Part shown: positions 1 through 64,000 of the stretch, in pieces
Layout: every line of letters begins with the position of its first letter
Numbering within the stretch: position 1 is the first letter of the stretch
Assembly: GCA_963920705.1 (NCBI GenBank)
Contig: CAWUCO010000284.1
Span: forward strand, 1,197,222 to 1,261,221
Length of the DNA: 64,000 bases
DNA from: Odiellus spinosus
Lineage: Eukaryota > Arthropoda > Arachnida > Opiliones > Phalangiidae
Direction: 5' to 3'
Notes under the pieces: generated by a model
The model's database searches: none
What the model was told of the DNA's origin: nothing
The model's input: the letters and a program-made list of their open reading frames with translations, nothing else
Translations under genes and position numbers: made by a program

Positions 1-1685
1 TAAGCCATTGAAGTTCGCCTTCATAAATTTAATTGTCCCCCTAATGTTTTTGATCAATTTGTCCTTTACTTGTGGAATATACCCGACAAAATTGAAAAAC
101 ACAATTATTATACCTATTCACAAGAAAGGGGACGTCGGTACCCCAGGAAACTACGGTCCAATATCGCTCCTCTCCTTTATAGCTAAAATATTTGACAATC
201 TTATCTTTATAGGTTAAAATCCTTTTCTGACAAAAGTAACCTCCTAACAGCTTTCCAGTTCGGGTTCCGTGCGGGGAAAAGCACAATCGATGCAATAACT
301 AATTCGTATAAATTTATAATAGATGCGCTAGACAAAGGAAATACCTGTATTGGGACATTTCTGGATCTTCGCAAAGCGTTCGATAGTGTTTCTCATTCGC
401 TACTTATTGAGAAATTGCATCGTCTGGGGATAAGAGGGAAAGCCGGAGACTGGCTGCAAAGCTACCTGGAAAATAGGCCCTGCCACACTAAGATTAAAAA
501 TAACTTATCGGCAAGTAACTACCTTCAGTCCGGGGTCCCCCAAGGGTCAGTTATCTCCCCATTGCTGTTCAATCTCTATTTTAATGACTTAGTCGACCAA
601 CTTCCCTTGGGTTCCCTCTTCTTGTATGCGGATGATGCGCTGCTATTAAACTCCTCTAAATGTATAAAGGATGCCTATCAAACAACGAATAAGTATCTTA
701 CAAAAATATTCAATTGGCTAACAGCAAGCGGTCTCTCGCTTAACCTCGCCACAACGGAATATATACTATTTGCCAACCACGGAAAGGACGTAGAAAGTCA
801 TAATGATAAACTTATAATAAATAACACTGAAATTAAACGAGTTTATAAATGCAAATATCTTGGTATCTGGTTTGACCCCCAATTATCTTGGAACATCCAC
901 ATAGACTCTATTTGTATACAACTTTCCAGGGTGTGTGGCCAAGTATATCGTTGTAAAAATTGTGTCCCCAGAAAGATACTATTTGAAGTATATTATGCCC
1001 TATTTTACTCAGTCGTATCCTATGGCATAAGTGTGTGGGGAAGTACCTCTGGTTATAATATCAAGAGACTAACAACCCTACAAAAACGAATAGTTAGGTC
1101 CATATATAATTTAGAATATCGAGCGCACACCCGAGATCTGTTTGTGAAAGGGAAGCTGCTTAATGTTACCCAGTTACAAAAATTTATGTCTTTGACATAT
1201 ATTTACTCTGAACTATCTAAAGGCTCAACCCTACTTCCAAAAATTGCTAAATTACGTTATACACGTTCAAATAATGTATTAGCGACTGAGAAGTGTAGAA
1301 CTACTAAAAAACTCTCGTCCTTATTTTATTCTGGCAGCCAACTATTTAATATGCTACCAGCAGAAACACGGAATCTACGACCAGTTCAAAAATTCAAAAA
1401 ACAATTAAAACATTTACTCACGACTAATTTCCTTTAGCTTAGTGTTTTCAAAGGTTGCTGGCTTATATAGAATATAAGTGATGGACTTATGGTGTTTTTG
1501 CTTCATTTTCTTTCACTATTTTTGTAAATTTTTCTTATATTTTTACTAATTGTTATATTTGGACTCGTTATAATTATTAATGTTTTAATTTATACCAAAT
1601 ACGGGGCTTACAAATCGATCGCTGATTTAGCCCCGTTCAAACCCAATGTACCACTTTATTGAATAAACCATTGAATTGAATTGAA
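1..1685 (+). mobile_element. Non-LTR retrotransposon (LINE), 3' part, Jockey/CR1-like group
   Basis: The left part lies outside the window. The visible part holds a reverse transcriptase reading frame to 1437, a 3' UTR of about 230 bp, an AATAAA-like signal near 1661 and a tail of three TTGAA units (1671-1685). A short tandem tail instead of poly(A) is known in several LINE clades. No LTR is seen. The tail runs straight into repeat family A at its internal GACCCAGAAGG, so the LINE inserted into a copy of A. Clade assignment (Jockey, Rex/CR1 or Daphne-like) is inferred from the look of the RT and is not certain. Confidence 0.9.
211..1437 (+). pseudogene. LINE reverse transcriptase (ORF2 C-terminal part), frameshifted
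   Basis: Copies LINE RNA into DNA at the target site. From 211 one frame stays open to the TAG at 1435-1437. Visible RT blocks are FGFRAGKST, the first catalytic block FLDLRKAFDSVSH (364 on), SGVPQGSVISPLLFNLYFNDL (shown here by its key residues G-VPQG-S and NDL) and the second catalytic block YADD at 625-636. The C-terminal region has the KRLTTLQKRIVRSI helix typical of Jockey/CR1-type ends. The preceding RT segment (IIPIHKKGDVGTPGNYGPIS) lies at about 95-190 in another frame that stops at 215, so a frameshift falls near 200-215. The endonuclease lies outside the window, if present. Inactive copy. Confidence 0.88.
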
Positions 1686-2080
1686 AGACCCAGAAGGACA
1701 TGTTATGGCCTTGAATGTCTGAAGTGACAGATACTTAATTTTCATTTAAAACATTAAATTTAAATACAATTAAATTTTCTTTTAAAACATGAAAGTTAAA
1801 TATAATTAGATTTTCTTTTAAAACGAAATTTAAATATAATCACAATCTGGCACGATTTAGAGTTTCAAATTTCAAAACAACTGATTTTATTCACTCAGAA
1901 ATATTTAAGAAAAAACATAACAGACGATTTTCTCCCATTGACACTAAACATTAAATTTCGCTTAATTATTTTTTAGGAATTACGTGTCAAACAAAACGAA
2001 ACTTTTCGTTAGATAGAAAATTGACTTAATTTAGCTTTGGGTTTAGGCATAGACTCAAAGTTCTATGATCTGATCTCATT
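1686..2080 (+). repeat. Repeat family A, copy 1
   Basis: About 395 bp, repeated at 8968, 23177, 24553-25676 (inverted), 57641 and 62411 (inverted). It has a GTCTGAAGTGACAGATA motif, three imperfect copies of a ~35-bp unit built on TTTTCTTTTAAAAC, then conserved blocks such as CAAAACAACTGATTTTATTC and GATCTGATCTCAT. The outer end is missing because the LINE abuts it. No coding potential. Confidence 0.9.
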
Positions 2081-8967: not shown

Positions 8968-9215
8968 CTAACAAAAATATCAAAAATGTCCTTGTGAACA
9001 AAGACCCAGAAAGACCTGTTATGATTTCGGATGTCTGAAGTGACAGATATGTTAAATTTTCTTTAAAACGTAAAATTTAATTATAATCGCAATCTGACAG
9101 GATTTAGATTCTAATTTCAAAACAACTGATTTTATTCACTCGCAAATATTTAAGAAAAAACATAACAGACGATTTTCTCCCATTGACCCTTAACATTAAA
9201 TTTGGCTAAATTATT
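8968..9215 (+). repeat. Repeat family A, copy 2, shortened
   Basis: Begins with the outer end ATATCAAAAATGTCC, then AACAAAGACCCAGAA, and runs to TAACATTAAATTTGGC. It has only one of the three ~35-bp subunits and is more diverged than the other copies. It ends at the direct repeat that starts at 9221. Confidence 0.85.
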
Positions 9216-20445: not shown

Positions 20446-20935
20446 TAGAGCTCGGAATTCGTATAATTTTTAATAATTGGATAAAATGTACTAAATTCTG
20501 ATGTATATTATTTGTTCGAGTTAACTTATTCGAAGATAAAGTAAAAAATCATAATCCATATCCGTTTTTATCCGAAAATGGACTTATCTTAGAATATTAT
20601 CCGTGTTATACGTTCGGATAAAAAAAATTCAAAATTTATTTTCGTGAAAAATAACGAATAAAAGATGAGTTAAAATATTAGTTTCGTCGTTTTATTTACA
20701 TTCTTCAAATTAAAAGTCAATTTGAAATATTTTTCTTATATTTTAGACTAATTCTGGAAACAAAAATTTTCTTATCCATCGTTATATGTTTGAATACGAG
20801 TAATTTGTTCGTAGATAAAGCGCCAAACGCTTATCTTCGGGTTAACCTTATACCTTTAAGAATTATACGAATACACAAATTTCATTTTTAAGTTACAAAC
20901 AATTTATCTGAAGATATACGAATTCGGAGAACCCG
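20446..20935 (+). repeat. Repeat family B, copy 1, with terminal inverted repeats
   Basis: Starts GAGCTCGGAATTCGTATA and ends TATACGAATTCGG, so the ends are inverted copies. The interior (GATAAAGTAAA, CCATATCCGTTTTTATCCG, CGTTATA..GTTTGAATACGAG) is found in reverse at 32975-33345. Non-coding MITE-like family related to C. Confidence 0.85.
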
Positions 20936-20939
20936 GTAG

Positions 20940-21250
20940 TGTTCTATGTTATGGGCTGATCATCATCTGTAATGCGATTTTGATTTCCTTAAAAAATTGG
21001 ACCTTTTGCCAATCAGAACGCTCAATTTCCCCATTGAAATAACATTAAAATCGACTCTTTCGAGGACATGTCCCGTGCATCGCAGAACTAAAAGAGGAAT
21101 TATTTGTTACGGTTAAAATCAATTTTAAGTGGTAGAGCAAGGTTCGAATGTTGAACCTTTCAAGTTTCATTTAAAAATATTAAGTCTAAATATTTTAAAA
21201 TTAATTCTAAAGTTGACCCTTTTTTTGGTACTTAGCTGGTTTCGCGCATG
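20940..21250. other. Unassigned non-coding DNA
   Basis: Nothing supported. Confidence 0.5.
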
Positions 21251-21256
21251 GCCAAA

Positions 21257-21755
21257 TTCGTAATGTTATTCTATGGGATTTGGTTTTTTGAAAGTGGCTT
21301 ACCTTTCAGGTTTATTTTCTAATACATCCGGATATTTTTAAATCTTGGATTTTCCGTGTGGTATGAATTAAGTTTCAAGCTTTATTTTAAGACTAATTTC
21401 ATAATTTTACACCAATTAGTTGGCCCACAATCTATTTATGAAAAAGGACGAAAAATTAAAGCGGATAAATTGAGTGGGCAAAAACCTAAGCCTTATTTGA
21501 CAAATTAGGCTTAGGTTTTCTATGCTTTTTAAATTCACGTGCAGGAGCGTGCTTGGGTATTGAGCGCTAATGACTTAATTTCTCCTCCTTCATATTTTTG
21601 CAGTTTTTATAAATAGACTGTGGCCAAACTAATCGGTGTAAAATTATGAAATTAGTCTTAAAATAAAGCCCGAAAAATATCTGGAATCATTAGAAAATAA
21701 ATCTGAAAGGTAAGTCTCGTACAAAAAATCTAAATCCCATAGAATAATATTAATT
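21257..21755. mobile_element. Foldback MITE with arms of roughly 150-185 bp
   Basis: The left arm runs from ATTCTATGGGATTTGG to CCCACAATCTATTTAT. The right arm is its reverse, ATAAATAGACTGTGGCC to AAATCCCATAGAAT. A smaller palindrome, AAAACCTAAGCC / GGCTTAGGTTTT, sits in the middle. If the end is CTATGGG, flanks AATGTTATT and AATAATATT match at 7 of 9 bases, hinting at a Mutator-like 9-bp duplication. Confidence 0.85.
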
Positions 21756-21844
21756 TTCAATTTCTCCGCCTTAAAACTTAAAAGTACTCTCCTTTTTAAA
21801 AATGTGAAAGTCCGAACGACTTGGCATTTCGAACGGCAATAAGG

Positions 21845-23130
21845 AAGGTATAAACATCCAAAATAATGAAAAAAATAATTTAAATTTAGTTTAAAGGGTA
21901 ATGGGAAAAATATGAAGATTTCGCTGTGGCTGTCGGAGGTATTAACATCAAAAATGATGAAAAAATTATTTTAAATTAGGTTTAAGGGCAATGGGGAAAA
22001 TATAAAGATTTCGCTGCGGTTGACGGAGGTATTAACATCAAAAATGATGAAAAAATAAATTTTAATTGGGATTAAAGGGCACTGGTAAAAATGTAGAGAT
22101 TTGACTGGAATCAAGTGCGGCTGCCGGAGGTATTAACATCAAAAATTATGAAAAAATTAATTTTAATTGGGTTTAAAGGGCACTGGTAAAAATGTAGAGA
22201 TTTGACTGGAATCAAGTGCGGCTGCCACAGCTATTAACATCAAAAATTATGAAAAAATTAATTTTAATTGGGATTAAAGGGCACTGGTAAAAATGTAGAG
22301 ATTTAACTGAATCAAGTGCGGCTGCCCCAGCTATTAAGATCAAAAATAATGAAAAAATTAATTTTAATTGGGATTAAAGGGCAATGGTAAAAATGTAGAG
22401 ATTTGACTGAATCAAGTGCGGCTGCCCCAGCTATTAACATCAAAAATAGTGTAAAAATTAATTTTAATTGGGATTAAAGGGATATGGTAAAAATGTAGAG
22501 ATTTGACTGAATCAAGTGCGGCTGCCATAGCTATTAACATCAAAAATTATGAAAAAATTAATTTTAATTGGGATTAAAGGGCACTGGTAAAAATGTAGAG
22601 ATTTGACTGGAATCAAGTGCGGCTGCCACAGCTATTAACATCAATAATATGAAAAAATTAATTTTAATTGGGATTATAGGGCACTGGTAAAAATGTAGAG
22701 ATTTAACTGAATCAAGTGCGGCTGCCATAGCTATTAACATCAAAAATAATGAAAAAATTCATTTTAATTGGGATTAAAGGGCACTGGTAAAAATGTAGAG
22801 ATTTGACTGGAATCAAGTGTGGCTGTCGGAGGTATTAACATCTAAAATTATGAAAAAATTAATTTTAATTGGGATTAAAGGGCACTGGTAAAAATGTAGA
22901 GATTTGACTGAATCAAGTGCGGCTGCCATAGCTATTAACATCAAAAATAATGTAAAAATTAATTTTAATTGGGATTAAAGGGCAATGGTAAAAATGTAGA
23001 GATTTGACTGAATCAAGTGAGGCTGCCCGAGCTATTAACATCAAAAATTGTGAAAAAAAATACATTTTAATTGGGTTTAAAGGGCAATGGTAAAAATGTA
23101 GAGATTTGACTGAATCACTTTTTAAAGGGC
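21845..23130 (-). repeat. 100-bp satellite, array 1
   Basis: About a dozen monomers of 100 bp (GCTGCC at 22221, 22321, 22421 and so on), each with GTAGAGATTTGACTG, AATCAAGTGCGGCTGCC and TTAATTTTAATTGGG. Same satellite as at 58090 and 62945, but reversed and more diverged between monomers. The first monomers (21845-22060) are the most diverged. Confidence 0.95.
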
Positions 23131-23176
23131 TAGTCTTTTAATATAGAAGTTAACACTTTCGTGTTAGACTGAAGTG

Positions 23177-23592
23177 ACAGATATTATATCAAAAATGTCT
23201 TTGCGAACAAAGACCCAGAAGGACATGTTATGGCCTTGAATGTCTGAAGTGACAGATATTTAATTTTCTTTTAAAACATTAAATTTAAATACAATTAAAT
23301 TTTCTTTTAAAACATGAAATTTAATATAATAAGTTTTTCTTTTAAAATGAAATTTAAATATAATCGCAATCTGGGACGATTTAGAGTTTCAAATTTCAAA
23401 ACAACTGATTTTATTCACTCGGAAATATTTAAAAAAAAACATAACAGATGATTTTCTCCCATTGACGCTTAACATTAAATTTCGCTTAATTACGTGTCAA
23501 ACAAAACGAAACTTTTCGTTCGATAGAAAAATATACTTAATTTAGCTTTGGCTTTAGGCATAGACTCAAAGTTCTATGATCTGATCTCATAC
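23177..23592 (+). repeat. Repeat family A, copy 3, full length
   Basis: Outer end TTATATCAAAAATGTCTTTG, inner end CTGATCTCATACCTTAATTG. It lies between the 100-bp and 148-bp satellites, the same neighbours as at 57.6 and 62.4 kb in mirror order. Confidence 0.92.
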
Positions 23593-23600
23593 CTTAATTG

Positions 23601-24080
23601 GATAATGTTTTCTATGGATAATGCTTTATTATAACTCCTCGACTTTAGTCGAGGCAATACGTTCATGTTAGCTTATGAAAGCTTATACAAGGAATTTAAA
23701 GGGAAAAAAAATTCCCCATATTTTAATTTTTAATCTAGGTTGCAAACGAACAAACCTAATCCATGGATAATGTTTTATTACAACTGCTCGACTTTAGTCG
23801 AGGCAATTCGTTCATGTTAGCTTATGAATGCTTATCAAGGAATTTAAAGGGAAAAAAATTCCCCATATTTTAATTTTTAATCTAGGTTGCAAACGAACAA
23901 ACCTAATCCATGGATAATGTTTTATTACAACTGCTCGACTTTAGTCGAGGCAATTCGTTCATGTTAGCTTATGAATGCTTACACAAGGAATTTAAAGGGA
24001 ATAAAAATTCCCCATATTTTAATTTTTAATTTAGGTTGCAAACGAACAAACCTAATCCATGGATAATGTTTTATTATAAC
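23601..24080 (-). repeat. 148-bp satellite, array 1
   Basis: Three to four monomers, each with CTCGACTTTAGTCGAGG, TTCGTTCATGTTAGCTTATG, AATTTAAAGGG and CAAACCTAATCCATGGATAA. Reverse of the arrays at 56.9 and 61.6 kb. Confidence 0.95.
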
Positions 24081-24552
24081 TCCTAATAACTAATTAGTGG
24101 TCCCTTATGGAAATCATCATTTTAATTGTACGGTTTTAAGGAAAAGAAAAATGAAAGTATTACAATTTATTTAAAAACCTTATCCGCTCTAAAATTCGTC
24201 GCTTTGAAATTCTCTTCCCTTGCGCGCACAATATAGCTTTGAAAGTACAAATTGTTATGGTTTGCGTCGTCTGCTAAGTTAGAAAAGAAGGTTCACGAAG
24301 TATCCGACTCGTTTATTTTTAAATTTTTAGATATTATAAAACCGTGGACATTATGAATATTAAACTAAAGGATTAGAAAAGAATGTGACTTTAAACGGGC
24401 TTTAAAAAACACATTTCCCTTTATCATATACCCATTCCAATAAACCGGCGAGTATTTTTAACGATCCGTTCAATTGCGAGTCGTGGAAATTCGGGTTAAA
24501 TTAAGAAAACAAAAAGTGGACTCGCGTTATACTGAGAAATAACAGTTCAATA

Positions 24553-25676
24553 CACGTTTTCCCTGAAAAATAATTAAGCCAAATTTAATGTTAAGCGTCA
24601 ATGGGAGAAAATCGTCTGTTATGTTTTTTCTTAAAGGTACAGACCAGGATAAAAAAAGTGTGTCTTAAATTATAGAGCCTATATTAAAACGACTAATATC
24701 ATATCGCAAAAAATTTAATAGTAGATATTAAGATATTTACGTTTATTATAAGCAAAAAGTGATCTCTAGTGAACGCCATTTTAGTTTTTTCATACCCTTT
24801 CGATGCCTGCTGAGGATCGGCTTCGCCGATTGGTTTATTTCTCACCTAAAGTCACTTGACTCTAGCTGAAAATAGATGCGGGTATAAGCGCGCTCAATTT
24901 CTTTAGAGTCAAATAAGATATGCCGGGCCGAAACATAGGCTACTTCCGAAGGATCCCGCGCGCGAACACTAACCCGAAGGTCGGTCGGCCAGCTGAGCTA
25001 GTAGTAGTCAGTACTAGGTATTAACCGAGTCTTAAGTTGATTTGAAGAATTAGAAGGTAAGAACTAAACTGCATTCATTAATTACGCAATTAGGCATGTT
25101 TTCGTAGAAAGTTAGAAATCACAAAATTACGGGTCTTCTTACGAAGTTACGAACAGACGATCCGACTGCAGCCGACTCGAATGGCCTTCGTTTCGCGAAT
25201 CTTTATTGGGTGACTTAAAGGCCAATCATTGAAGCGGATCCTTATTTTTAAAACTCGAAATGCCGGGAAGCAAATATGGCGTTCTTCTAGGAACGTCAAT
25301 TTCGGTTTTAAAATGATATTTATAAATTAACCAAGACTTAAATCACTATAATGTGTTTTGATTTGTAGGTTTTTAAGCATGCTCTTTCCAATGGAAGTAC
25401 TTTTAAAGTTGGGTTGCCTTTTCCTTTAAATATTTCCAAGTGAATAAAATCAGTTGTTTTGAAATTTGAAACTCTAAATCGTGCCAGATTGTGATTATAT
25501 TTAAATTTCGTTTTAAAAGAAAATATAATTATATTTAAATTTCATGTTTTAAAAGAAAATTTAATTGTATTTAAATTTAATGTTTTAAAAGAAAATTAAA
25601 TATCTGTCACTTCAGACATTCAAGGCCATAACATGTCCTTCTCGGTCTTTGTTCGCAAAGACATTTTTGATATAAT
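24553..25676 (-). repeat. Repeat family A, copy 4, inverted and interrupted
   Basis: Parts at 24553-24630 and 25436-25676 together cover the family in reverse, with outer end CATTTTTGATATAATA. It faces copy 3 (23177-23592), so the pair could be long terminal inverted repeats of a ~2.5-kb element. The middle is an insertion (24635-25435). Confidence 0.88.
24635..25435. mobile_element. 801-bp insertion flanked by TTAA
   Basis: Repeat A is interrupted exactly between TTAA at 24631-24634 and TTAA at 25436-25439. The insert begins AGGTACAGACCAGG and ends GGCAACCC's complement region GGGTTGCCTTTTCCT, so the ends are at best weakly inverted (AGG...). TTAA duplications are known for piggyBac and Kolobok. 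No coding frame. Confidence 0.65.
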
Positions 25677-25679
25677 AAT

Positions 25680-32204: not shown

Positions 32205-32975
32205 CAAGAGTAGAGCTCGGAATCGGATATCCATTATCTTCCGTTATTCGTATAGACCACCCAGATGGTATGTACCCATTTCGCCCAAAATATTTCGCCC
32301 AAAATGATCTATTCCCATTTCGCCCAAGGCATTTTTTGCCCAAAATTATCTATTCCCATTTCGCCCAATCCTACTTTGCCCAATCGCTTTATCATTTGGC
32401 CCTAAATTATCTCTTCCCATTTTGCCCAAACTAAAAATTCCTTTTCTCAATTCGCCCAATCCCAATTTGCCCAATCGTTTTATCAGTTAGCCTAGAATTA
32501 TCTATTCCCATTTCGCCCAAACCAAAAATTTCTCTTCCCTTTTCGCCTAAAACGATTAAAGCTTAAACCTTTTAAAATTTAAAGTCTTAGTAGGCCAAAA
32601 AAGTGACTTTTATTTAATTTAGGTTAGGTTAGGTTAGGTTAGGTTGGGGGAAAAAAGTGGAAAAATGTGACTTGGGCAAAATGAGATTGGTCCAAATCAA
32701 AATTGGGCGAAACGAGATTGGGCGAGAAGACATTAGGCCAAATGGGAATTGGGCCAAATGGGAATTGGGCCAACGGGAATTGGGCGAAAAGAAATTGGGC
32801 CAAATGGGGTTGGGCGAAATGGGATTTGGGCGAAAAGGGATTTGGGCGAAAAGAAATTGGGCGAAATGGGAATTGGGCGAAATGGGAATTGGGCGAAATG
32901 AAATTGTGCGAAATGGGAATTGGGCGAAATGAAATTGGGCGAAAATAAATTGGGCGAAATGGGGGTAGACCTTTC
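32205..32975. mobile_element. Foldback element with minisatellite arms around a TTAGG run
   Basis: The left arm (32260-32545) repeats CCCATTTCGCCCAA-type units of ~18-30 bp. The right arm (32690-32970) repeats the complement, TTGGGCGAAATGGGAA. Between them at 32619-32643 are five TTAGG units, the insect telomere sequence. The left border GTAGAGCTCGGAATCGGATA resembles the end of family B, and family B in reverse follows on the right. The open frames in the arms are just repeat translations. Confidence 0.88.
32619..32643 (+). repeat. Interstitial (TTAGG)5
   Basis: Five perfect units. TTAGG is the telomere repeat of many insects. Here it is inside a mobile element, so it does not mark a chromosome end. 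Confidence 0.9.
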
Positions 32976-40539: not shown

Positions 40540-42226
40540 CTTTTTTTTTCGAAAATGTAAAATAACAACCGTTTTTCCCAGATTTAATGGTATTTTCGCT
40601 TCGGAATCTGTAGTGATATTAATATCAATCACGTTAAAATTAGAGACGCGTAGCGGGTAGTAATTGATCGGATTACAAATTATATTATGAGGTATATTAT
40701 CCTTATTGTTTTCTGGTCGACTAATTATTCGAATTAAACCGCCCCAAGCGTCACCTATAGACTGCTGATAGATGAGGTTAGTATGAATAAATAAACTCAT
40801 GATCCCCCTATTTATATCAGCCACGAATTGACCATCTGTATTATTAACCAGATACGTATCAATGAGATTATCGTCGAAACCTAACATCTTTCCTAACCCG
40901 GGGTTGTCTTTTCTAATTTTAACGGAAAAAATAACCAAATATTCTCGTTGTTCTAACGTTAATTCAGCATCCGGGCTGTTATTGAGTCCTACACCGCATT
41001 TAAGCTTCACGGTTCCGTTTTTATTATGTTTAAACGCAAAGTAAGGACGAATTCGACTCGTCTAAAACCGCTTCTACACTCTCGTACGAACCGCGCGTTA
41101 AAAAATACGTGTCAGTTTCAATTATAATCGTATCTTTATTCGTATCTATTTTAGGCACCGCATCATACAATTTCTCTTTATATCTAATATTGATAGGAGG
41201 AATCATTCTTAGATCTATTTCTGTAGCTTTGCGATCTACGGCTCTAAATGTATAGACTCGTCTATCAGTCAACCACCCATTAGTCTGCTCAGGTGGTATG
41301 CCTAATATATTGGCATACTGGGGCGGGAATTTGGCAAGGTTTCCGATAACCGACCCCCACCATCTAACGATGGTTTTGAGCTAATTAGGACCTGGGGAGT
41401 TCAGAAAAAATACTTAAAAAAATCTTCAACCATCGGAAGTTTGAGAAAATCGCATTTCAAAATTTGAAGTTTGCATGTTAAATCCCATAGATTCTAACCC
41501 AACCCAACCTAAAATATACCCAATCTAACCTAACCCAACCCAACCTAACCAAACCCAACCTAACCTAACCCAACCTATGGCGCATTCTATGGGATTTTAG
41601 CATGGGAATTTCAAATTTTCAAATACGTTTTTCTCGAATTTCCGGTGGTCAGAGATTTTTTTAATTATTTTTTCTGAACTCCCCAGCTCCAAAATAGTCT
41701 ATAACCATCGTTATTTAGTTGGGGGGTCGGTTAACGAAAATCTCCCCGGGAATTTAATAGCTACACCACTGTCACTCGTTTTAATAGTAAATTGTTTACC
41801 CTGGCCTGTGGATATTAAAAAAAATTTTACTTTGTCTTGCGAACCACTTTTTTCTTCACCCTTAATTAAAATATCTAACAATCGATAGTAGATATACATA
41901 TCATAATTTTTCTCACGCTTAAGCAAACCCCCTTTCTTCACATCCATTAAAGCGTATTTATGTTCGTAATGCGGGTCAGCGTACCTAACCGTAAATTCAT
42001 TATACCGATCCGTAATGTTATCCCATTTCGACGGCATAGTTATTTCCGATACACCCGCCTCCCATTTACCAACTTCTAAATCTAATGTCGCTGCTAATTG
42101 AGTTTTATAACTAGTTTTTGTATTATCAGGATAAATATGCATAAACGCGTTACTTGGTAACGTAATATAAAAATTATCCTCGCTCGGTGATAACATGGAC
42201 ATGATTAATCGTAGAATGGTTTGCAA
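40540..42226 (-). pseudogene. Polinton minor capsid (penton) protein fossil
   Basis: The N-terminal part (41756-42226) has the family pattern FYITLPSNAFMHIYPDNTKT and LDLEVGKWEAGVSEI. The C-terminal part (40540-41030) has NYYPLRVSNFNVIDINI and ending residues LGKTVVILHFRK. A 414-bp MITE lies within the gene (41333-41746). Decayed. Confidence 0.8.
41333..41746. mobile_element. 414-bp MITE with a 9-bp target duplication
   Basis: Flanked by CGGGAATTT at 41324-41332 and 41747-41755. The ends are long inverted repeats (~150 bp): the left has CGATAACCGACCCCC, CTAACGATGGTT, GGGGAGTTCAGAAAAAATA; the right has the reverse. The centre holds CCTAACC/CCCAACC repeats, like degenerate telomere-type DNA. 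A 9-bp duplication is the mark of Mutator-like transposons. Inserted in the Polinton, so younger than it. Confidence 0.9.
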
Positions 42227-53924: not shown

Positions 53925-55140
53925 AACAATCCCTTTTGAAAATCCTGGAAAATCTCAATGATTATTTTTGCTAGTACAACAACTGAGTTTTTCCAATTCC
54001 AAGAGCAAGAGACCTAAAAAATGGCACTTCTGTATATCAAGAGCAGATATGCCAGCCACATCACATGATTGTAAGGCTTATTCATTATTCCAAATGCTTT
54101 ACTGGCAATTACAACCTTTTTGACTATAGCTTCATTGAACAATCTTCTAGTAAAGCACTGGGAAAACTGGTATTTCTCATTTTCATCTAATAACATGAAA
54201 TACTATTCATTATAAAATTAAATACTGAAATATTGAGAGTTTCTAATATTAACTTAATGTTAACCCAAAAAAATGACGTTTCTAACGACTAATTTTGTTA
54301 TTGCAGATCCAAATGTCTCTAGGTCATAAACCTTCTAGTTTTAAGACTTAAAAAATAAACAGTTCTTCCGAAAAACATACTTTTTCAGGATTTCCAATAA
54401 TTTCGTGATACTAGCCTAAAAAGTACATGAGCTTAAGCAAAATATGAGTATTTTTTAACAATGAAAAACTTACTCTCATATTTTCAATAAGGTATGTAGT
54501 ATCAATACTCTCCATTTGTTCCGCAGCACTTTTAATGTTTTAAAAAAATACATCATTTTGACTAGATTTACTAGAACCTAGATTAGAGGAAGTTTCTTTG
54601 TACTTTGTGATTCTTTTGATAATTACAATTTAGTTACGGTGATAACGTGTTTGTAGCTGCAAAAGCTTAATGAACGCTACCAATATTTAGTAAGAAAATA
54701 AACAAATTACAGTATTCTACCAGGAGCTTAAGTTATTGAACAATACATAATATCACTTACACCTTTAGAAATATTTTCTGGGTCTCAGAAAGTAGGCATT
54801 AATTGATTCCTTAAAAATATATTTTTTAACCTGTTTTTAGCCAATATCGTTCCCTCCTCTTAGAGAAGATTTAATAGAAAGGGGGAAGTTCGCAACTATC
54901 AGAAATATTTTTAAAGGAGATGGCACACTTTCTATGTGTTTTGGCTTTCTACGGATTTCCTTTAAATTGAGATATATTGTTAAGCTTAGTAAAAGGAGCA
55001 AAATTGTCCATGGGCACTTTTCCCTAGCTCCAACGGATTGACCAGCATCGATGATTAAAATTTGGACACTCGTAGTTGGGTCTGGGATTTTCCTTACCAT
55101 TTTTTGGTCATGAAGCTAAAATGTTAATTAAGCTTATTTG
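53925..55140. other. Mostly unassigned; weak exon-like stretches
   Basis: 54837-55039 is open on both strands. The plus frame starts after a CTGTTTTTTAG acceptor-like site and reads PISFPPLREDLIERGKFATI; the minus frame reads MVRKIPDPTTSVQILIIDAG. 54014-54196 (minus) reads DENEKYQFSQCFTRRLFNEA. These could be decayed exons; strand and function are undecided. Confidence 0.3.
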
Positions 55141-55150
55141 CTCATAGAGG

Positions 55151-55235
55151 AAGTTGGCTAGTTGGCAACGCACTAGCCTGGTGATTGCAGAGACCCGGGT
55201 TCGATTCCCCAAAACAGCTTTTTTTTTATTTATTT
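55151..55235 (+). repeat. tRNA-derived SINE-like head
   Basis: AAGTTGGCTAGTTGGCAACG (A-box type) with CACTAGCCTGGTGATTGCAG and then CCCGGGTTCGATTCCCC (B box). It runs into T-rich DNA. The typical two-box spacing of a pol III promoter is kept. No full tRNA fold, so SINE rather than tRNA gene. Confidence 0.6.
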
Positions 55236-55363
55236 TATAGTATTAATTACTAAATGATTTGTGTCATATTGAAACATTTGAAATAATAATAATACAAATA
55301 AGCATATTAACTATAAAAGCATGTACAGCCAATATGGGTATAAGCTTGCCCAAATAAAACAAA

Positions 55364-55587
55364 TATTTAATTAAAAAAATTTTCACAGGAGTCACTGCAG
55401 TTTTATTTATCAATAGTTTTATTGACTAAGACAACGTTTCGGAGCTATTACTCCATCATCAGGTCCACTACTTGATAGTGGTGGACCTGATGATGGAGTA
55501 ATAGCTCCGAAACATTGTCTTAGTCAATAAAATTATTGATAAATAAAACTGCATTGACTCCTTGCGAATTTTTTTTTAATTAAATGT
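55364..55587. repeat. Near-perfect palindrome, ~110-bp arms
   Basis: The left arm has GGAGTCACTGCAGTTTTATT, ACAACGTTTCGGAGCTATTA and CTCCATCATCAGGTCCACTA; the right arm is the reverse complement with only a few differences, and the tip is about six bases (TTGATA). The arms extend outwards through TTTAATTAAAAAAA. The CTGATGATGGAG...CTCCGAAAC phrase is widespread in arthropod repeats and recalls Penelope-like termini. Confidence 0.9.
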
Positions 55588-55589
55588 AT

Positions 55590-55970
55590 AATAGCTGCAA
55601 AAGAAATGATTGGTTAAAACAAATATTTACTGGTTGTTCCGTATAAGGGAAAAAAGAAAAACTGATAGGTTGCACCTCTTAGTTTAAAGCTTCATGGAAA
55701 TCTCTGTTTTTCTACACTATTCCTAAACGGATTCGTTTGAATAAACCGTTTAAGCTGTTAAATACGTTCATTTTTAACTATTTGCACTACCAAAGCTAAA
55801 CTTGGTGAAAAAAGGTTTAGAGTTAAGGACATGAGAGGTCGATGTTGAAATTCACTACTAACTGATAGAGTAAATCTCCATGATTTAGAATAATATAAGA
55901 TATTATTCCTAAAAAATCTATAAAAAAAACCTTCGTTTCGGAGTAAACTCTGAGAATTATTTCTGCACTT
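55590..55970. other. Unassigned non-coding DNA
   Basis: Nothing recognised. Confidence 0.5.
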
Positions 55971-55974
55971 TCAA

Positions 55975-56190
55975 GGGAGTTGAGTTGTCCGTTTAGACGG
56001 TACAAAAGGGGGTAGGCAACCATATTCATCACACATGTTAAGTGGGTTGACACATCGCCGACACATCGCCACCACAGCGCATGAGCTCACGCGTAGAGAC
56101 GGCGATGTATCAACCCCGTTTACGTGTGTAATACAGATGGTTGTCTACGCCCTATCCTACCGTCGCAATGGTCAATTAACGGTCTCCTAC
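55975..56190. repeat. Diverged inverted repeat (~80-bp arms)
   Basis: Left GTAGGCAACCATATTCATCA, CACATGT, GGGTTGACACATCGCC; right GGCGATGTATCAACCCCGTT, ACGTGTG, CAGATGGTTGTCTACGCC. About 75% paired by eye. A 75-codon frame across it is incidental. Confidence 0.75.
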
Positions 56191-56274
56191 CGACGTCACA
56201 CGGCGCGCACTGTTGCCCGCCAACTAGACACGGTACGCCGCAACCCCCGCCCCCTTTTCTGAAAGCGTTGATTA

Positions 56275-56545
56275 ACTAAAAGACTTTATTCGAGCCAAAA
56301 TATTTTATAGATTCACGCAAGCCGTCAAGCGCAGTATCTATATCTCATATTTTGAAAACGTGCAACCGTGGCTTAGAGAAGACGACCTACAAGGACTCCA
56401 AGTGGAGCCGATTGTTGGTAATTATTGCACTTGCAAAGCTGGTGCACGAACCCTTAGGGTATGTGAACACGTTGCAAGTGTTCTATGGTACTTTGCCTAT
56501 GCTCGTCTCCAAGTAGACGTTCATTACCCACCAGGAAATATTTAA
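56275..56545 (+). CDS. SWIM zinc-finger protein, C-terminal exon
   Basis: Open frame of about 90 codons ending in TAA at 56543-56545. It reads DFIRAKIFYRFTQAVKRSIS, VQPWLREDDLQGLQVEPIVG, then NYCTCKAGARTLRVCEHVAS, with CxC-x(n)-CxH spacing, a SWIM finger, followed by VLWYFAYARLQ. SWIM fingers bind DNA or protein and are found at the C-terminus of Mutator-like and some other transposases, and in some host proteins. A stop lies just upstream of the frame, so this is a last exon or a remnant; the rest of the gene was not found. The last 177 bp are duplicated at 61003. Probably transposon-derived (inference). Confidence 0.65.
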
Positions 56546-56549
56546 GGTC

Positions 56550-56940
56550 AGTGTTAGATTCGGCAAACCGAGATGACCACGGTGGCCCAGTGGTCGTACC
56601 AATCTAATATTAATATCATCATTCCCATTTTGTCGTTTTAAAATTTTGTCCGTCAATAGTTCTTGACATGAATTGTTTACACAGAGAATCTTCTCATGTT
56701 AAGAGGGATATTTGGTGTTTGCAACACCTTCCCCTTTGAAGAAACGATCCTATCTCATTATGAATAACTTTAGTCCAGTCAATTATCAACAGCTATTAAA
56801 CAACAAAACACTGTTTCCATCTTCCATTATCATTTGGCTAATAAATTATTATTTTTATTTTTGTTTCATATTATGCTTTGTGGGAATATTTTATGCTGTT
56901 TGAATTTACTGATTTTAAATACATCTGAATGTATCACTGA
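56550..56940 (+). other. Spacer after the SWIM exon
   Basis: Probably 3' UTR or subterminal DNA, repeated at 61184-61570. A 63-codon frame (56712-56903) starting MVFATPSPLKKRSYL is kept in unit 2 apart from two lost codons and a Val-to-Ile change, but it looks incidental. Confidence 0.5.
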
Positions 56941-56943
56941 ATA

Positions 56944-57635
56944 TGGGGAATTTTTATTCCCTTTAAATTCCTTGTATAAGCATTCATAAGCTAACATGAA
57001 CGAATTGCCTCGACTAAAGTCGAGGAGTTGTAATAAAACATTATCCATGGATTAGGTTTGTTCGTTTGCAACCTAGATTAAAAATTAAAATATGGGGAAT
57101 TTTTTTCCCTTTAAATTCCTTGTATAAGCATTCATAAGCTAACATGAACGAATTGCCTCGACTAAAGTCGAGGAGTTGTAATAAAACATTATCCATGGAT
57201 TAGGTTTGTTCGTTTGCAACCTAGATTAAAAATTAAAATATGGGGAATTTTTTTCCCTTTAAATTTCTTGTATAAGCATTCATAAGTCAACATGAACGAA
57301 TTGCCTCGACTAAAGTCGAGGAGTTATAAAAAAACATTATCCATGGATTAGGTTTGTTCGTTTTCAACCTAAATTAAAAATTAAAATATGGGGATTTTTT
57401 ATTATCTTTAAATTCCTTGTATAAGCATTCATAAGCTAACAAGAAACGAATTGCCTCGACTAAAGTCGAGGAGTTGTAATAAAACATTATCCATGGATTA
57501 GGTTTTTTCGTTTGCAACCTAAATTAAAATATGGGGAATTTTTATTACCTTTAAATATCTTGTATAAGCATTCATAAGCTAACATGAACGAATTGCCTCG
57601 ACTAAAGTCGAGGAGTTATAAGAAAACATTATCCA
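56944..57635 (+). repeat. 148-bp satellite, array 2 (five monomers)
   Basis: CGAATTGCCTCGACTAAAGT begins at 57001, 57149, 57297, 57447 and 57589. Each monomer has an 8-bp-stem hairpin CCTCGACT-AA-AGTCGAGG and CCATGGATTAGG. Confidence 0.96.
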
Positions 57636-57640
57636 ATTAA

Positions 57641-58029
57641 GGTATAAGATCAGATTATAGAACATTGATTCTATGCCTAAAGGCAAAGCTAAATTAAGTA
57701 TATTTTTCTAGCGAACGAAAAGTTTCATTTTGTTTGACACGTAATCCCTGAAAAATAACTAAGCGAAATTTAATGTTAAGCGTCAATGGAAGAAAATCGT
57801 CTGTTATGTTTTTTCTTAAATATTTCTGAGTGAATAAAATCAGTTGTTTTGAAATTTGAAACTCTAAATCGTGCCAGATTGTGATTATATTTAAATTTCG
57901 TTTTAAAAGAAAATCTAATTATATTTAAATTTTATGTTTTAAAAGAAAATTAAATATCTGTCACTTTAGACATTCAAGGCCATAACATGTCCTTCTGGGT
58001 CTTTGTTCGCAGAGACATTTTTGATATAA
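57641..58029 (-). repeat. Repeat family A, copy 5, inverted
   Basis: From the inner end CAATTAAGGTATAAGATCAG to the outer end ACATTTTTGATATAAT. Sits between the 148-bp and 100-bp satellites. Confidence 0.95.
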
Positions 58030-58089
58030 TATCTGTCACTTCAGTCTAACACTAAAGTGTTAACTTCTATATTAAAAGACTAGCCCTTT

Positions 58090-60995
58090 AAAAAGTGATT
58101 CAGTCAAATCTCTACATTTTTACCATTGCCCTTTAAACCCAATTAAAATTAATTTTTTCACAATTTTTTCACAATTTTTGATGTTAATAGCTGCGGCAGC
58201 CGCACTTGATTCAGTCGGATCTCTACATTTTTACCATTGCCCTTTAAACCCAATTAAAATAAATTTTTCCACAGTATTTGATTTTAATAGCTGGGGCAGC
58301 CTCACTTGATTCAGTCAGATCTCTACATTTTTACCAGTGCCCTTTAAACCCAATTAAAATAAAAAATTTCATAATTTTTTATGTTAATAGCTGGGGCAGC
58401 CTCACTTGATTCAGTCAGATCTCTTCATTTTTATCATTGCCCTTTAAACCCAATTAAAATTAATTTTTTCACAATTTTTGATGTTAATAGCTGCGGCAGC
58501 CGCACTTGATTCAGTCGGATCTCTACATTTTTACCATTGCCCTTTAAACCCAATTAAAATAAATTTTTTCACAATATTTGATTTTAATAGCTGGGGCAGC
58601 CTCACTTGATTCAGTCAGATCTCAACATTTTTACCAGTGCCCTTTAAACCCAATTAAAATAAAAAATTTCATAATTTTTTATGTTAATAGCTGGGGCAGC
58701 CTCACTTGATTCAGTCAGATCTCTTCATTTTTATCATTGCCCTTTAAACCCAATTAAAATTAATTTTTTCACAATTTTTGATGTTAATAGCTGCGGCAGC
58801 CGCACTTGATTCAGTCGGATCTCTACATTTTTACCATTGCCCTTTAAACCCAATTAAAATAAATTTTTTCACAATATTTGATTTTAATAGCTGGGGCAGC
58901 CTCACTTGATTCAGTCAGATCTCAACATTTTTACCATTGCCCTTTAAACCCAATTAAAATAAAAATTTTCATAATTTTTTATGTTAATAGCTGGGGCAGC
59001 CTCACTTGATTCAGTCAGATCTCTACATTTTTATCATTGCCCTTTAAACCCAATTAAAATAAAAAATTTCATATTTTTTTATGTTAATAGCTGGGGCAGC
59101 CTCACTTGATTCAGTCAGATCTCTACATTTTTATCATTGCCCTTTAAACCCAATTAAAATAAAAAATTTCATAATTTTTTATGTTAATAGCTGGGGCAGC
59201 CTCACTTGATTCAGTCAGATCTCTTCATTTTTATCATTGCCCTTTAAACCCAATTAAAATTAATTTTTTCATAATTTTTGATGTTAATAGCTGCGGCAGC
59301 CGCACTTGATTCAGTCGGATCTCTACATTTTTACCATTGCCCTTTAAACCCAATTAAAATAAATTTTTTCACAATATTTGATTTTAATAGCTGGGGCAGC
59401 CTCACTTGATTCAGTCAGATCTCTACATTTTTACCATTGCCCTTTAAACCCAATTAAAATTAATTTTTTCATAATTTTTGATGTTAATAGCTGGGGCAGC
59501 CTCACTTGATTCAGTCAGATCTCAACATTTTTACCATTGCCCTTTAAACCCAATTAAAATAAAAAATTTCATAATTTTTTATGTTAATAGCTGGGGCAGC
59601 CTCACTTGATTCAGTCAGATCTCTTCATTTTTATCATTGCCCTTTAAACCCAATTAAAATTAATTTTTTCACAATTTTTGATGTTAATAGCTGCGGCAGC
59701 CGCACTTGATTCAGTCGGATCTCTACATTTTTACCATTGCCCTTTAAACCCAATTAAAATAAATTTTTTCACAATATTTGATTTTAATAGCTGGGGCAGC
59801 CTAACTTGATTCAGTCAGATCTCAACATTTTTACCATTGCCCTTTAAACCCAATTAAAATAAAAATTTTCATAATTTTTTATGTTAATAGCTGGGGCAGC
59901 CTCACTTGATTCAGTCAGATCTCTACATTTTTATCATTGCCCTTTAAACCCAATTAAAATAAAAATTTTCATAATTTTTTATGTTAATAGCTGGGGCAGC
60001 CTCACTTGATTCAGTCAGATCTATACATTTTTATCATTGCCCTTTAAACCCAATTAAAATTAATTTTTTCACAATTTTTGATGTTAATAGCTGTGGCAGC
60101 CGCACTTGATTCAGTCGGATCTCTACATTTTTACCATTGGCCTTTAAACCCAATTAAAATAAATTTTTTCACAATATTTGATTTTAATAGCTGGGGCAGC
60201 CTCACTTGATTCAGTCAGATCTCTACATTTTTACCATTGCCCTTTAAACCCAATTAAAATTAATTTTTTCATAATTTTTGATGTTAATAACTGCGGCAGC
60301 CGCACTTGATTCAGTCAGATCTCAACATTTTTACCATTGCACTTTAAACCCAATTAAAATAAAAATTTTCATAATTTTTTATGTTAATAGCTGGGGCAGC
60401 CTCACTTGATTCAGTCAGATCTCTACATTTTTATCATTGCCCTTTAAACCCAATTAAAATAAAAATTTTCATAATTTTTTATGTTAATAGCTGGGGCAGC
60501 CTCACTTGATTCAGTCAGATCTATACATTTTTATCATTGCCCTTTAAACCCAATTAAAATTTATTTTTTCACAATTTTTGATGTTAATAGCTGTGGCAGC
60601 CGCACTTGATTCAGTCTGATCTCTACATTTTTACCATTGGCCTTTAAACCCAATTAAAATAAATTTTTTCACAATATTTGATTTTAATAGCTGGGGCAGC
60701 CTCACTTGATTCAGTCAGACCTCTACATTTTTACCATTGCCCTTTAAACCCAATTAAAATTAATTTTTTCATCATTTTTGATGTTAATAACTGCGGCAGC
60801 CGCACTTGATTCTGTCAGATCTGTACATTGTTACCATTGCCCTTTAAATCCAATTAAAATTAATTTCTTCATTTTTGATGTTAATAGCTACGGCAGCCGC
60901 ACTTGATTCAGTCAAATCTCTACATTTTTACCATTCCCCTTTAAACCCAATTAAAATAAATTTTTTCATCATTTTTGATGTTAATACCTCCGACA
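58090..60995 (+). repeat. 100-bp satellite, array 2, with 300-bp higher-order period
   Basis: About 29 monomers of almost exactly 100 bp (CCTTTAAACCCAATTAAAAT at 58441, 58541, 58641 ...). Three monomer types alternate (CTGCGGCAGCCGC, CTGGGGCAGCCTC after AATATTTGATTTT, and AAAAAATTTCATAATTTTTT). Blocks at 58441-58740 and 58741-59040 are nearly identical, giving a 300-bp higher-order repeat that becomes irregular after about 59000. Non-coding. Confidence 0.97.
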
Positions 60996-61002
60996 GCCGC
61001 AG

Positions 61003-61179
61003 TGGCTTAGAGAAGACGACCTACAAGGACTCCAAGTGGAGCCGATTGTTGGTAATTATTGCACTTGCAAAGCTGGTGCACGAACCCTTAGGGTATGTGA
61101 ACACGTTGCAAGTGTTCTATGGTACTTTGCCTATGCTCGTCTCCAAGTAGACGTTCATTACCCACCAGGAAATATTTAA
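61003..61179 (+). pseudogene. Second copy of the SWIM exon end
   Basis: Same sequence as 56369-56545, so it keeps the full CTCKAGARTLRVCEH finger and stop, but joins directly to satellite DNA upstream (GACAGCCGCAG at 60992-61002). It lacks the first ~30 codons of unit 1's exon. Not expected to be a working gene. Confidence 0.8.
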
Positions 61180-61575
61180 GGTCAGTGTTAGATTCGGCAA
61201 ACCGAGATGACCACGGTGGCCCAGTGGTCGTACCAATCTAATATTAATATCATCATTCCCATTTTGTCGTTTTAAAATTTTGTCCGTCAATAGTTCTTGA
61301 CATGAAGTGTTTACACAGAGAATCTTCTCATGTTAAGAGGGATATTTGGTGTTTGCAACACCTTCCCCTTTGAAGAAACGATCCTATCTCATTATGAATA
61401 ACTTTAGTCCAATCAATTATCAACAGCTATTAAACAACAAAACACTGTTTCCATCTTCCATTATCATTTGGCTAATAAATTATTATTTTTATTTCATATT
61501 ATGCTTTGTGGGAATATTTTATGCTGTTTGAATTTACTGATTTTAAATACATCTGAATGTATCACTGAATATGGG
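61180..61575 (+). other. Spacer after the second SWIM copy
   Basis: Copy of 56546-56940, with six bases fewer in an ATTTTTATTT stretch near 61490. Confidence 0.8.
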
Positions 61576-61578
61576 GAA

Positions 61579-62405
61579 TTTTTATTCCCTTTAAATTCCT
61601 TGTATAAGCATTCATAAGCTAACATGAACGAATTGCCTCGACTAAAGTCGAGGAGTTGTAATAAAACATTATCCATGGATTAGGTTTGTTCGTTTGCAAC
61701 CTAGATTAAAAATTAAAATATGGGGAATTTTTTTCCCTTTAAATTCCTTGTATAAGCATTCATAAGCTAACATGAACGAATTGCCTCGACTAAAGTCGAG
61801 GAGTTGTAATAAAACATTATCCATGGATTAGGTTTGTTCGTTTGCAACCTAGATTAAAAATTAAAATATGGGGAATTTTTTTCCCTTTAAATTTCTTGTA
61901 TAAGCATTCATAAGTCAACATGAACGAATTGCCTCGACTAAAGTCGAGGAGTTATAAAAAAACATAATCCATGGATTAGGTTTGTTCGTTTTCAACCTAA
62001 ATTAAAAATTAAAATATGGGGATTTTTTATTATCTTTAAATTCCTTGTATAAGCATTCATAAGCTAACAAGAAACGAATTGCCTCGACTAAAGTCGAGGA
62101 GTTGTAATAAAACATTATCCATGGATTAGGTTTATTCGTTTTCAACCTAAATTAAAGTTAAAATATGGGGATTTTTTATTATCTTTAAATTCCTTGTATA
62201 AGCATTCATAAGCTAACAAGAAACGAATTGCCTCGACTAAAGTCGAGGAGTTGTAATAAAACATTATCCATGGATTAGGTTTTTTCGTTTGCAACCTAAA
62301 TTAAAATATGGGGAATTTTTATTACCTTTAAATATCTTGTATAAGCATTCATAAGCTAACATGAACGAATTGCCTCGACTAAAGTCGAGGAGTTATAAGA
62401 AAACA
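61579..62405 (+). repeat. 148-bp satellite, array 3 (six monomers)
   Basis: CGAATTGCCT at 61629, 61777, 61925, 62075, 62224 and 62366. One monomer more than array 2; the extra one resembles its neighbour, as expected of unequal exchange. Confidence 0.96.
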
Positions 62406-62410
62406 TTATC

Positions 62411-62880
62411 CAATTAAGGTATAAGATCAGATTATAGAACATTGATTCTATGCCTAAAGGCAAAGCTAAATTAAGTATATTTTTCTAGCGAACGAAAAGT
62501 TTCATTTTGTTTGACACGTAATCCCTGAAAAATAACTAAGCGAAATTTAATGTTAAGCGTCAATGGAAGAAAATCGTCTGTTATGTTTTTTCTTAAATAT
62601 TTCTGAGTGAATAAAATCAGTTGTTTTGAAATTTGAAACTCTAAATCGTGCCAGATTGTGATTATATTTAAATTTCGTTTTAAAAGAAAATCTAATTATA
62701 TTTAAATTTTATGTTTTAAAAGAAAATTAAATATCTGTCACTTTAGACATTCAAGGCCATAACATGTCCTTCTGGGTCTTTGTTCGCAGAGACATTTTTG
62801 ATATAATATCTGTCACTTCAGACATTCAAGGCCATAACATGTCCTTCCGGGTCTTTGTTCGAAAAGACATTTTTGATTAA
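62411..62880 (-). repeat. Repeat family A, copy 6, inverted, with duplicated outer end
   Basis: Copy of 57641-58029 plus an extra ~63-bp repetition of the CTGTCACTTCAGACATTCAA ... ACATTTTTGAT outer segment. Confidence 0.95.
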
Positions 62881-62944
62881 TATCTGTCACTTCAGTCTAA
62901 CACTAAAGTGTTAACTTCTATATTAAAAGACTAGCCCTTTAAAA

Positions 62945-64000
62945 AGTGATTCAGTCAAATCTCTACATTTTTACCATTGCCCTTTAAACCCAATTAAAAT
63001 TAATTTTTTCACAATTTTTTCACAATTTTTGATGTTAATAGCTGCGGCAGCCGCACTTGATTCAGTCGGATCTCTACATTTTTACCATTGCCCTTTAAAC
63101 CCAATTAAAATAAATTTTTCCACAGTATTTGATTTTAATAGCTGGGGCAGCCTCACTTGATTCAGTCAGATCTCTACATTTTTACCAGTGCCCTTTAAAC
63201 CCAATTAAAATAAAAAATTTCATAATTTTTTATGTTAATAGCTGGGGCAGCCTCACTTGATTCAGTCAGATCTCTTCATTTTTATCATTGCCCTTTAAAC
63301 CCAATTAAAATTAATTTTTTCACAATTTTTGATGTTAATAGCTGCGGCAGCCGCACTTGATTCAGTCGGATCTCTACATTTTTACCATTGCCCTTTAAAC
63401 CCAATTAAAATAAATTTTTTCACAATATTTGATTTTAATAGCTGGGGCAGCCTCACTTGATTCAGTCAGATCTCAACATTTTTACCATTGCCCTTTAAAC
63501 CCAATTAAAATAAAAATTTTCATAATTTTTTATGTTAATAGCTGGGGCAGCCTCACTTGATTCAGTCAGATCTCTACATTTTTATCATTGCCCTTTAAAC
63601 CCAATTAAAATAAAAAATTTCATATTTTTTTATGTTAATAGCTGGGGCAGCCTCACTTGATTCAGTCAGATCTCTACATTTTTATCATTAACCTTTAAAC
63701 CCAATTAAAATAAAAATTTTCATAATTTTTTATGTTAATAGCTGGGGCAGCCTCACTTGATTCAGTCAGATCTATACATTTTTATCATTGCCCTTTAAAC
63801 CCAATTAAAATTAATTTTTTCACAATTTTTGATGTTAATAGCTGTGGCAGCCGCACTTGATTCAGTCGGATCTCTACATTTTTACCATTGGCCTTTAAAC
63901 CCAATTAAAATAAATTTTTTCACAATATTTGATTTTAATAGCTGGGGCAGCCTCACTTGATTCAGTCAGATCAATACATTTTTACCATTGCCCTTTAAAC
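62945..64000 (+). repeat. 100-bp satellite, array 3, runs off the window
   Basis: Same start as array 2 (AAAAAGTGATTCAGTCAAAT, then two TTTTTTCACAA copies) and the same monomer types, but the order of types diverges from array 2 after about six monomers. Confidence 0.96.

Follow-up and report, generated by a model that had tools for sequence, protein, structure and literature searches.

Helitron-type transposable elements that carry satellites, or give rise to them, are well described, as the available parts of several reports make plain (PMC7492417, PMC4067079, PMC12628747, PMC9659126, PMC8268682). Here, we describe a tandem array in the genome of Odiellus spinosus (Opiliones; assembly of 443 Mb in 286 contigs) whose unit spans the boundary between a dispersed, satellite-bearing element, probably Helitron-like, and a fragment of a DDE transposon. 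The array begins in, and runs beyond, the window, by which we mean the whole stretch of 64,000 nucleotides that was analyzed (contig CAWUCO010000284.1, hereafter C275, positions 1197222 to 1261221).

Oyster HINEs, which are non-autonomous Helentrons, are like the element here dispersed and non-coding, hold internal satellite arrays, leave no target-site duplication, and are linked to satellite DNA (PMC7492417). A HINE carries one, exceptionally two, kinds of repeat, and the element here carries two. According to the available part of that report, however, HINEs insert at TT, whereas the insertion of the element here reads as A^T in five of six empty sites. It also departs from that description in an internal inverted copy of its left end and in a tandem unit that takes in another transposon. 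DINE-1 and the mite HINEs share with it hairpins near the ends, a possible subterminal inverted repeat, and the lack of a target-site duplication, but T does not stand on both flanks of the element here, whose terminal sequences are also other than those in the available description (PMC4067079). As here, tandem arrays of truncated plant Helitrons (Xiong et al. 2016, as related in parts of PMC12628747 and PMC8268682) consist of several truncated units that have one 3' end between them, but the units here lack the 5' end of the element and span a fusion with a DDE transposon. The "shuffled" Helitron/satellite loci of the Pacific oyster likewise combine truncation, tandemization, and nesting of parts (PMC12628747); both parents of the duplication junction are readable at the edges of the array here, which may set it apart.

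A literature search by title or abstract start found no description of the array or the element, which does not prove absence. Satellites derived from transposons are already known, and we conclude that the array is a clear new case and not a new kind. What stands out is a unit that spans two unrelated transposons, junction parents kept at the edges, and sister arrays with other breakpoints. The beginnings of satellites are usually inferred from old, homogenized arrays. This array, by contrast, still shows its edges and its first junction, together with the deletions and changes in copy number that came later.

Structure of the array

Four modules, namely, a segment with a SWIM-like motif (S), a 148-bp satellite (sat148), repeat A, and a 100-bp satellite (sat100), were mapped on C275:1250001-1340000, 90 kb without N. 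Six units of S, sat148, A, and sat100 lie head to tail at C275:1253589-1294996 (~41 kb, no N), with starts at 1253589, 1258223, 1261774, 1265994, 1279330, and 1292555, and no seventh unit was mapped as far as C275:1340000. Unit 1 is whole in the window, and unit 2 is there in part. An earlier note on this DNA had proposed the head-to-tail unit and had asked for a count of units in the assembly. Its order of modules holds, as does its offset of exactly 4634 bp from S to S in units 1 and 2, and the count in C275 is six. Its start at 56275 has to be moved, as the repeated part begins at 56368 and the first 93 bp of its interval occur, within the array, in unit 1 only. Features of the window are as follows.

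54902..56932, + strand: remnant of a SWIM-bearing DDE transposon, with its left terminal repeat at ~54902 and ~285 bp missing on the right (blastn against C5 copy L032 and C275 copy L016/L017)
56276..56545, + strand: open frame of 89 amino acids with a SWIM-like CxC...CxH motif (Pfam PF04434, 16.8 bits; cut-off, 19.6)
56367..56368, no strand: breakpoint of the tandem duplication on its left side, between CAACC and GTGGCTTAG; unit 1 runs on leftward into the transposon, and S of units 2, 3, 5, and 6 starts here
56368..56939, + strand: S of unit 1, 572 bp, the last 7 bp of which are the filler ATCACTG (56933-56939) at the fusion
56940..57635, + strand: sat148 of unit 1, 4.7 copies (Tandem Repeats Finder [TRF] and segment map)
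57636..58150, + strand: repeat A of unit 1, within which the left end of the dispersed element recurs in inverted orientation
58096..61001, + strand: sat100 of unit 1, 28 to 30 copies (TRF and segment map)
61001..61002, no strand: junction of sat100 with S created by the duplication, identical in units 2, 3, 5, and 6
61002..61567, + strand: S of unit 2, with 2 substitutions and one gap relative to unit 1
61568..62412, + strand: sat148 of unit 2 (TRF and segment map)
62413..62896, + strand: repeat A of unit 2, within which 75 bp are duplicated (TRF, 62730-62895, and segment map)
62947..64000, + strand: sat100 of unit 2, running on to C275:1261773 (TRF and segment map)
20921..25677, - strand: separate dispersed Helitron-like copy, outside the array

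Steps from one unit start to the next are 4634, 3551, 4220, 13336, and 13225 bp. The differences are due mostly to satellite copy number, which varies several-fold between units: matches in units 1 to 6 number 5, 6, 9, 11, 20, and 2 for sat148 and 30, 17, 19, 111, 93, and 19 for sat100. Divergence outside the satellites is low. Not one of 572 bp differs between S copies 1 and 3, and thus the array is not due to chance. Whole S copies differ by 0 to 5 substitutions over 566 to 572 bp, overlapping S segments are <1% apart, and copies of A show 0 to 8 differences over 409 bp. The S of unit 4 is reduced to S positions 379-572 and that of unit 6 to S 1-322 by separate deletions, the latter private to its unit, and these partial copies have 0 to 2 substitutions where other copies overlap them. 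A comparison of the S of unit 4 with that of unit 6 (46 differences in 143) was set aside, as the two pieces do not overlap. Judged by its divergence, the array may be either young or held uniform by homogenization, both of which would be expected to look the same.

Origin of the array

A copy of the satellite element without its 5' part is fused to the DDE transposon fragment through a 7-bp filler. In the window, the transposon runs from ~54902 to 56932 and is followed by 7 bp that are matched by array copies alone and then by sat148. The junction of sat100 with S is identical in units 2, 3, 5, and 6, and in unit 4 a deletion puts sat100 against S 379, with GATC common to both sides. At the left edge of unit 1, S is preceded by transposon (CAACC, then GTGGCTTAG). 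At the right edge of the array (C275:1294996), the last 300 bp of sat100 differ from the 300 bp before the S junctions of units 2, 3, 5, and 6 by 4, 4, 2, and 4 mismatches, respectively; the right edge then continues as satellite GTGAAATC and the unit junctions as S GTGGCTTAG. Beyond the right edge lies the rest of the element, the 3' end of which is at C275:1296975. The array edges therefore still hold both parents of the junction, as tandem duplication in place would leave them, and the stretch across the fusion most likely was duplicated where it lay.

We consider it likely, with good confidence in the account as a whole, that a fused element-transposon stretch underwent local tandem duplication and that gain of units and change in satellite copy number followed. 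A single local tandem duplication would have joined sat100 to the SWIM segment, by end joining or template switching. The long direct repeats so made would then permit unequal exchange or replication slippage, leading to more units and altered satellite copy number. Formation of the array needs no protein function, and the SWIM-bearing frame is incomplete in every unit after unit 1.

Several points weigh against this account. The two breakpoints share just 3 bp, GTG, and at least 3 shared bp were found in 7.35% of 200,000 random breakpoints from the same sequences. Microhomology joining would fit the shared GTG, but so would chance, and we rejected it as proof of mechanism. The number of units is taken from the assembly. 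Moreover, the 75-bp internal duplication in A is present in units 2 to 6 and missing from unit 1. Because two dispersed loci, C11:1.716 Mb and C2:29.601 Mb, show the same overlap pattern, we did not use it to order the units, and the idea that units 2 to 6 came from one early copy was withdrawn. The duplication may be older than the array and may have been lost later from unit 1. Finally, we infer from different junctions that three further types of tandem unit, described below, were independent events.

We rejected the idea that the satellite element had simply inserted into the SWIM transposon, because the missing right end of the transposon, sought after the 3' end of the element up to C275:1312000, was not found. 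Faulty rolling-circle transposition, in which a circle without a 3' terminator is copied head to tail as truncated units that integrate in a single block, would suit a Helitron-like element, and several truncated units with one 3' end are a Helitron pattern in the available parts of two reports (PMC12628747, PMC8268682). The element's 5' end, where replication would be expected to start, is in no unit, however, and the unit begins instead within the SWIM segment. Moreover, the left edge runs into resident transposon up to the terminal repeat at ~54902, and both junction parents are in place. We regard the rolling-circle route as unlikely. Misassembly might also have multiplied one unit, as long, near-identical repeats are prone to it, but the units differ in step (3551 to 13336 bp), in satellite copy number, and in substitutions, two of them have private deletions, and the 90 kb contain no N; an artifact seems to us quite improbable.

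The earlier note had instead suggested that one DNA transposon, with SWIM at its end, was being converted there into a satellite. While a SWIM-like frame does adjoin the satellites in the array, S is missing from 14 fetched loci with copies of the element and from the second copy in the window, and a C5 copy of the S family runs past the breakpoint without satellite. An origin from one transposon end is thus very improbable. A tandem-amplified composite that contains a transposon, with the look of early satellite formation, survives from that reading, but the satellites and repeat A belong to the dispersed Helitron-like element and S to the DDE transposon. The note also had looked to S beside repeat A elsewhere as a check on the array. 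Among the matches listed, sat148 adjoins S only in this array: five module matches reach into S, all on C275 (38 of 1857 candidates scored), and 5 of the 61 listed S-region matches reach the fusion, all in this array (40 of 145 candidates scored). The array itself is not refuted by this result, because the joined unit is present six times.

The SWIM segment and its DDE transposon

By sequence comparison, S is an internal piece of a DDE_Tnp_4-related transposon unrelated to the satellite element. Window 55500-56939 has at least 61 matches (best 40 of 145 candidates). The C5 copy (L032) has terminal inverted repeats of ~160 bp that are 83% identical, and it extends ~285 bp past the point at which the window copy stops, without satellite there. 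A diverged copy (85%) lies at C275:1329156 on the strand opposite the array. The copy at C275:1330126 scores 17.5 bits for DDE_Tnp_4, under the cut-off of 24.8, and a 49%-identical relative on C5 (L047) scores 47.3 bits, over it, and has a C-terminal SWIM-like motif, itself under its cut-off. The window fragment holds the SWIM part only; the DDE_Tnp_4 assignment is that of the family and not of the fragment.

The SWIM zinc finger of the earlier note is borne out as a motif, which recurs in the window copy and in the C275:1329 kb and C5 relatives, but not as a domain call, as PF04434 scores of 16.8, 15.9, and 14.9 bits, respectively, fall below the cut-off of 19.6 in every copy tested. A genome-wide PF04434 search listed five places that score above the cut-off, all of them outside the S family, and a PDB search with the SWIM frame gave one match, at an E value of 0.28.

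The dispersed satellite-bearing element

The 14 fetched loci and the window copy follow a common plan: left end, ~374 bp, sat148, A, sat100, and a right part of ~1 kb. The left end is an inverted partial copy of A. Exceptions are an altered left end (L018), an inverted stretch within sat100 (L024), a second set of A and sat100 that faces the first (L028), and an extra ~0.78 kb in the left part of the window copy (20921-25677, - strand); for L026 and L029, the stretch examined does not take in the right end. Right-end matches cover at least 1089 of 1090 bases at 95 to 100% identity in 39 of 40 scored (best 40 of 1321 candidates), and left-end matches in at least 41 places span no fewer than 699 of 702 bases, with 98 to 100% identity (40 of 1992 candidates scored). 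When the two match lists were compared by eye, both ends were paired in the same orientation at at least 12 places, 4.2 to 5.4 kb from end to end, four of them in one duplicated C1 region.

Joined flanks were searched for 11 of the 15 copies; L018, L026, L028, and L029 were excluded on account of an end that was altered, lay outside the stretch, or adjoined another copy. Empty sites were found for six of the 11 (L020, L021, L023, L024, L027, and L031; best 40 of 2437 candidates), and for L019, L022, L025, L030, and the window copy no join-spanning match was among the matches listed (40 of 2437 candidates scored). Seven empty places were read, two of them for L027, and that of L024 is close to the copy itself. 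With constant ends TTATATC...CTAAGAA, there is no target-site duplication at the six empty sites, and insertion is A^T in five of them and A^C in the sixth. For L021, this reading requires a 1-bp difference. Flank and empty site overlap by 3 bases in four copies; one copy has an overlap of 4 bases and one of 2. A 3-bp target-site duplication (AAT or ATT) is possible and was weighed, but it was not preferred, as the ends of the element would have to vary among copies.

Canonical Helitrons insert between A and T without target-site duplication, in the available part of PMC4067079. Most copies here end in TTATATC... and ...CTAAGAA and not in the canonical 5' TC and 3' CTRR; the exceptions are L018 (left end altered, right end ...CATAGAA), L021 (TATATC), L023 (TTACATC), and the window copy (...CTCCGAA). 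Hairpins lie close to both ends. The predicted 3' hairpin, AGAACCC-tacc-GGGTTCT, is ~4 nucleotides (nt) from the end, where ~11 bp is canonical, and the last 45 nt give -11.6 kcal/mol with RNA parameters. The left neighbor is A, and in the 12 copies with a readable right end, the right neighbor is T in 11 and TT in 6; none of the 12 has the two or more T residues on each flank that mark Helentrons (HINEs). The ends share in inverted orientation only ATGTTATGG (9 bp), against 12 to 15 bp expected for HINEs, and 101 of 2000 shuffles did equally well or better. A proto-Helentron is alike in its 5' TT and A^T insertion but unlike the element here in its 3' CTAG, as described in part of PMC4067079.

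Rolling-circle insertion fits because, on the simplest reading, there is no target-site duplication and because hairpins lie near both ends. We call the element only Helitron-like because the TC and CTRR ends and the T flanks of Helentrons are absent; on these sequence features, it is probably a non-autonomous element of the rolling-circle type, and we assign it to none of the named subclasses. PF14214 (Helitron Rep) frames are common in the genome, with at least 150 over the cut-off (150 scored of 184 candidates). Three Helitron Rep frames on one strand of C107 (1909802, 1920977, and 1932150) are 11.17 kb apart and possibly form a tandem array of autonomous Helitrons.

The facing sets of A and sat100 at L028 (C2:28833001-28843000) make up a large inverted composite. 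At C1:5113212-5283541, eight right ends lie in the same orientation in steps of 13.8 to 27.9 kb, five of the seven near 25 to 26 kb, a spacing that points to tandem segmental duplication on a large scale. Window positions 1684-2079 and 8977-9215 are pieces of the end repeat of the element, of the A type.

Other tandem units of the element family

Three more types of tandem unit come from the same element family, each with different breakpoints. One joins A to sat148 at C1:13.75 Mb in a unit of 1241 bp, with three A copies in 4.2 kb, and the same junction was read at three places at C1:13.53 Mb. Another, read twice on C15 (2.887 and 2.889 Mb), joins sat100 to sat148 through a filler of 5 bp, and a different sat100-sat148 breakpoint occurs at two places on C1 (8.163 and 8.165 Mb). 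These junctions were read only where the module matches listed looked tandem, and they support no rate. We speculate, with more doubt than confidence, that this family seeds new satellites time and again, by recurrent local tandem duplication with new breakpoints that sometimes includes neighboring sequence. Duplication might recur because the element carries two unstable tandem arrays. If so, several stages of satellite birth would be legible within one genome. The sister arrays with other breakpoints offer a way to address whether tandem duplication is made more frequent by satellites embedded in an element.

Other observations

An Rfam scan of the window gave 0 matches. Short internal arrays of TTAGG and AACCTAACCC type, similar to telomere repeats, lie at window positions 32619-32645 and 41494-41577. 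TTAGG repeats, the insect type of telomere, are found at contig ends in many arthropods, and they make up two of the three contig ends read here. A satellite with a period of ~120 to 140 bp occurs within ~30 kb of both ends of C1 and C2, of the high ends of C3, C4, C5, and C7, and of the low ends of C10, C13, and C14, and the element copy L021, on C18, sits inside an array of this kind.

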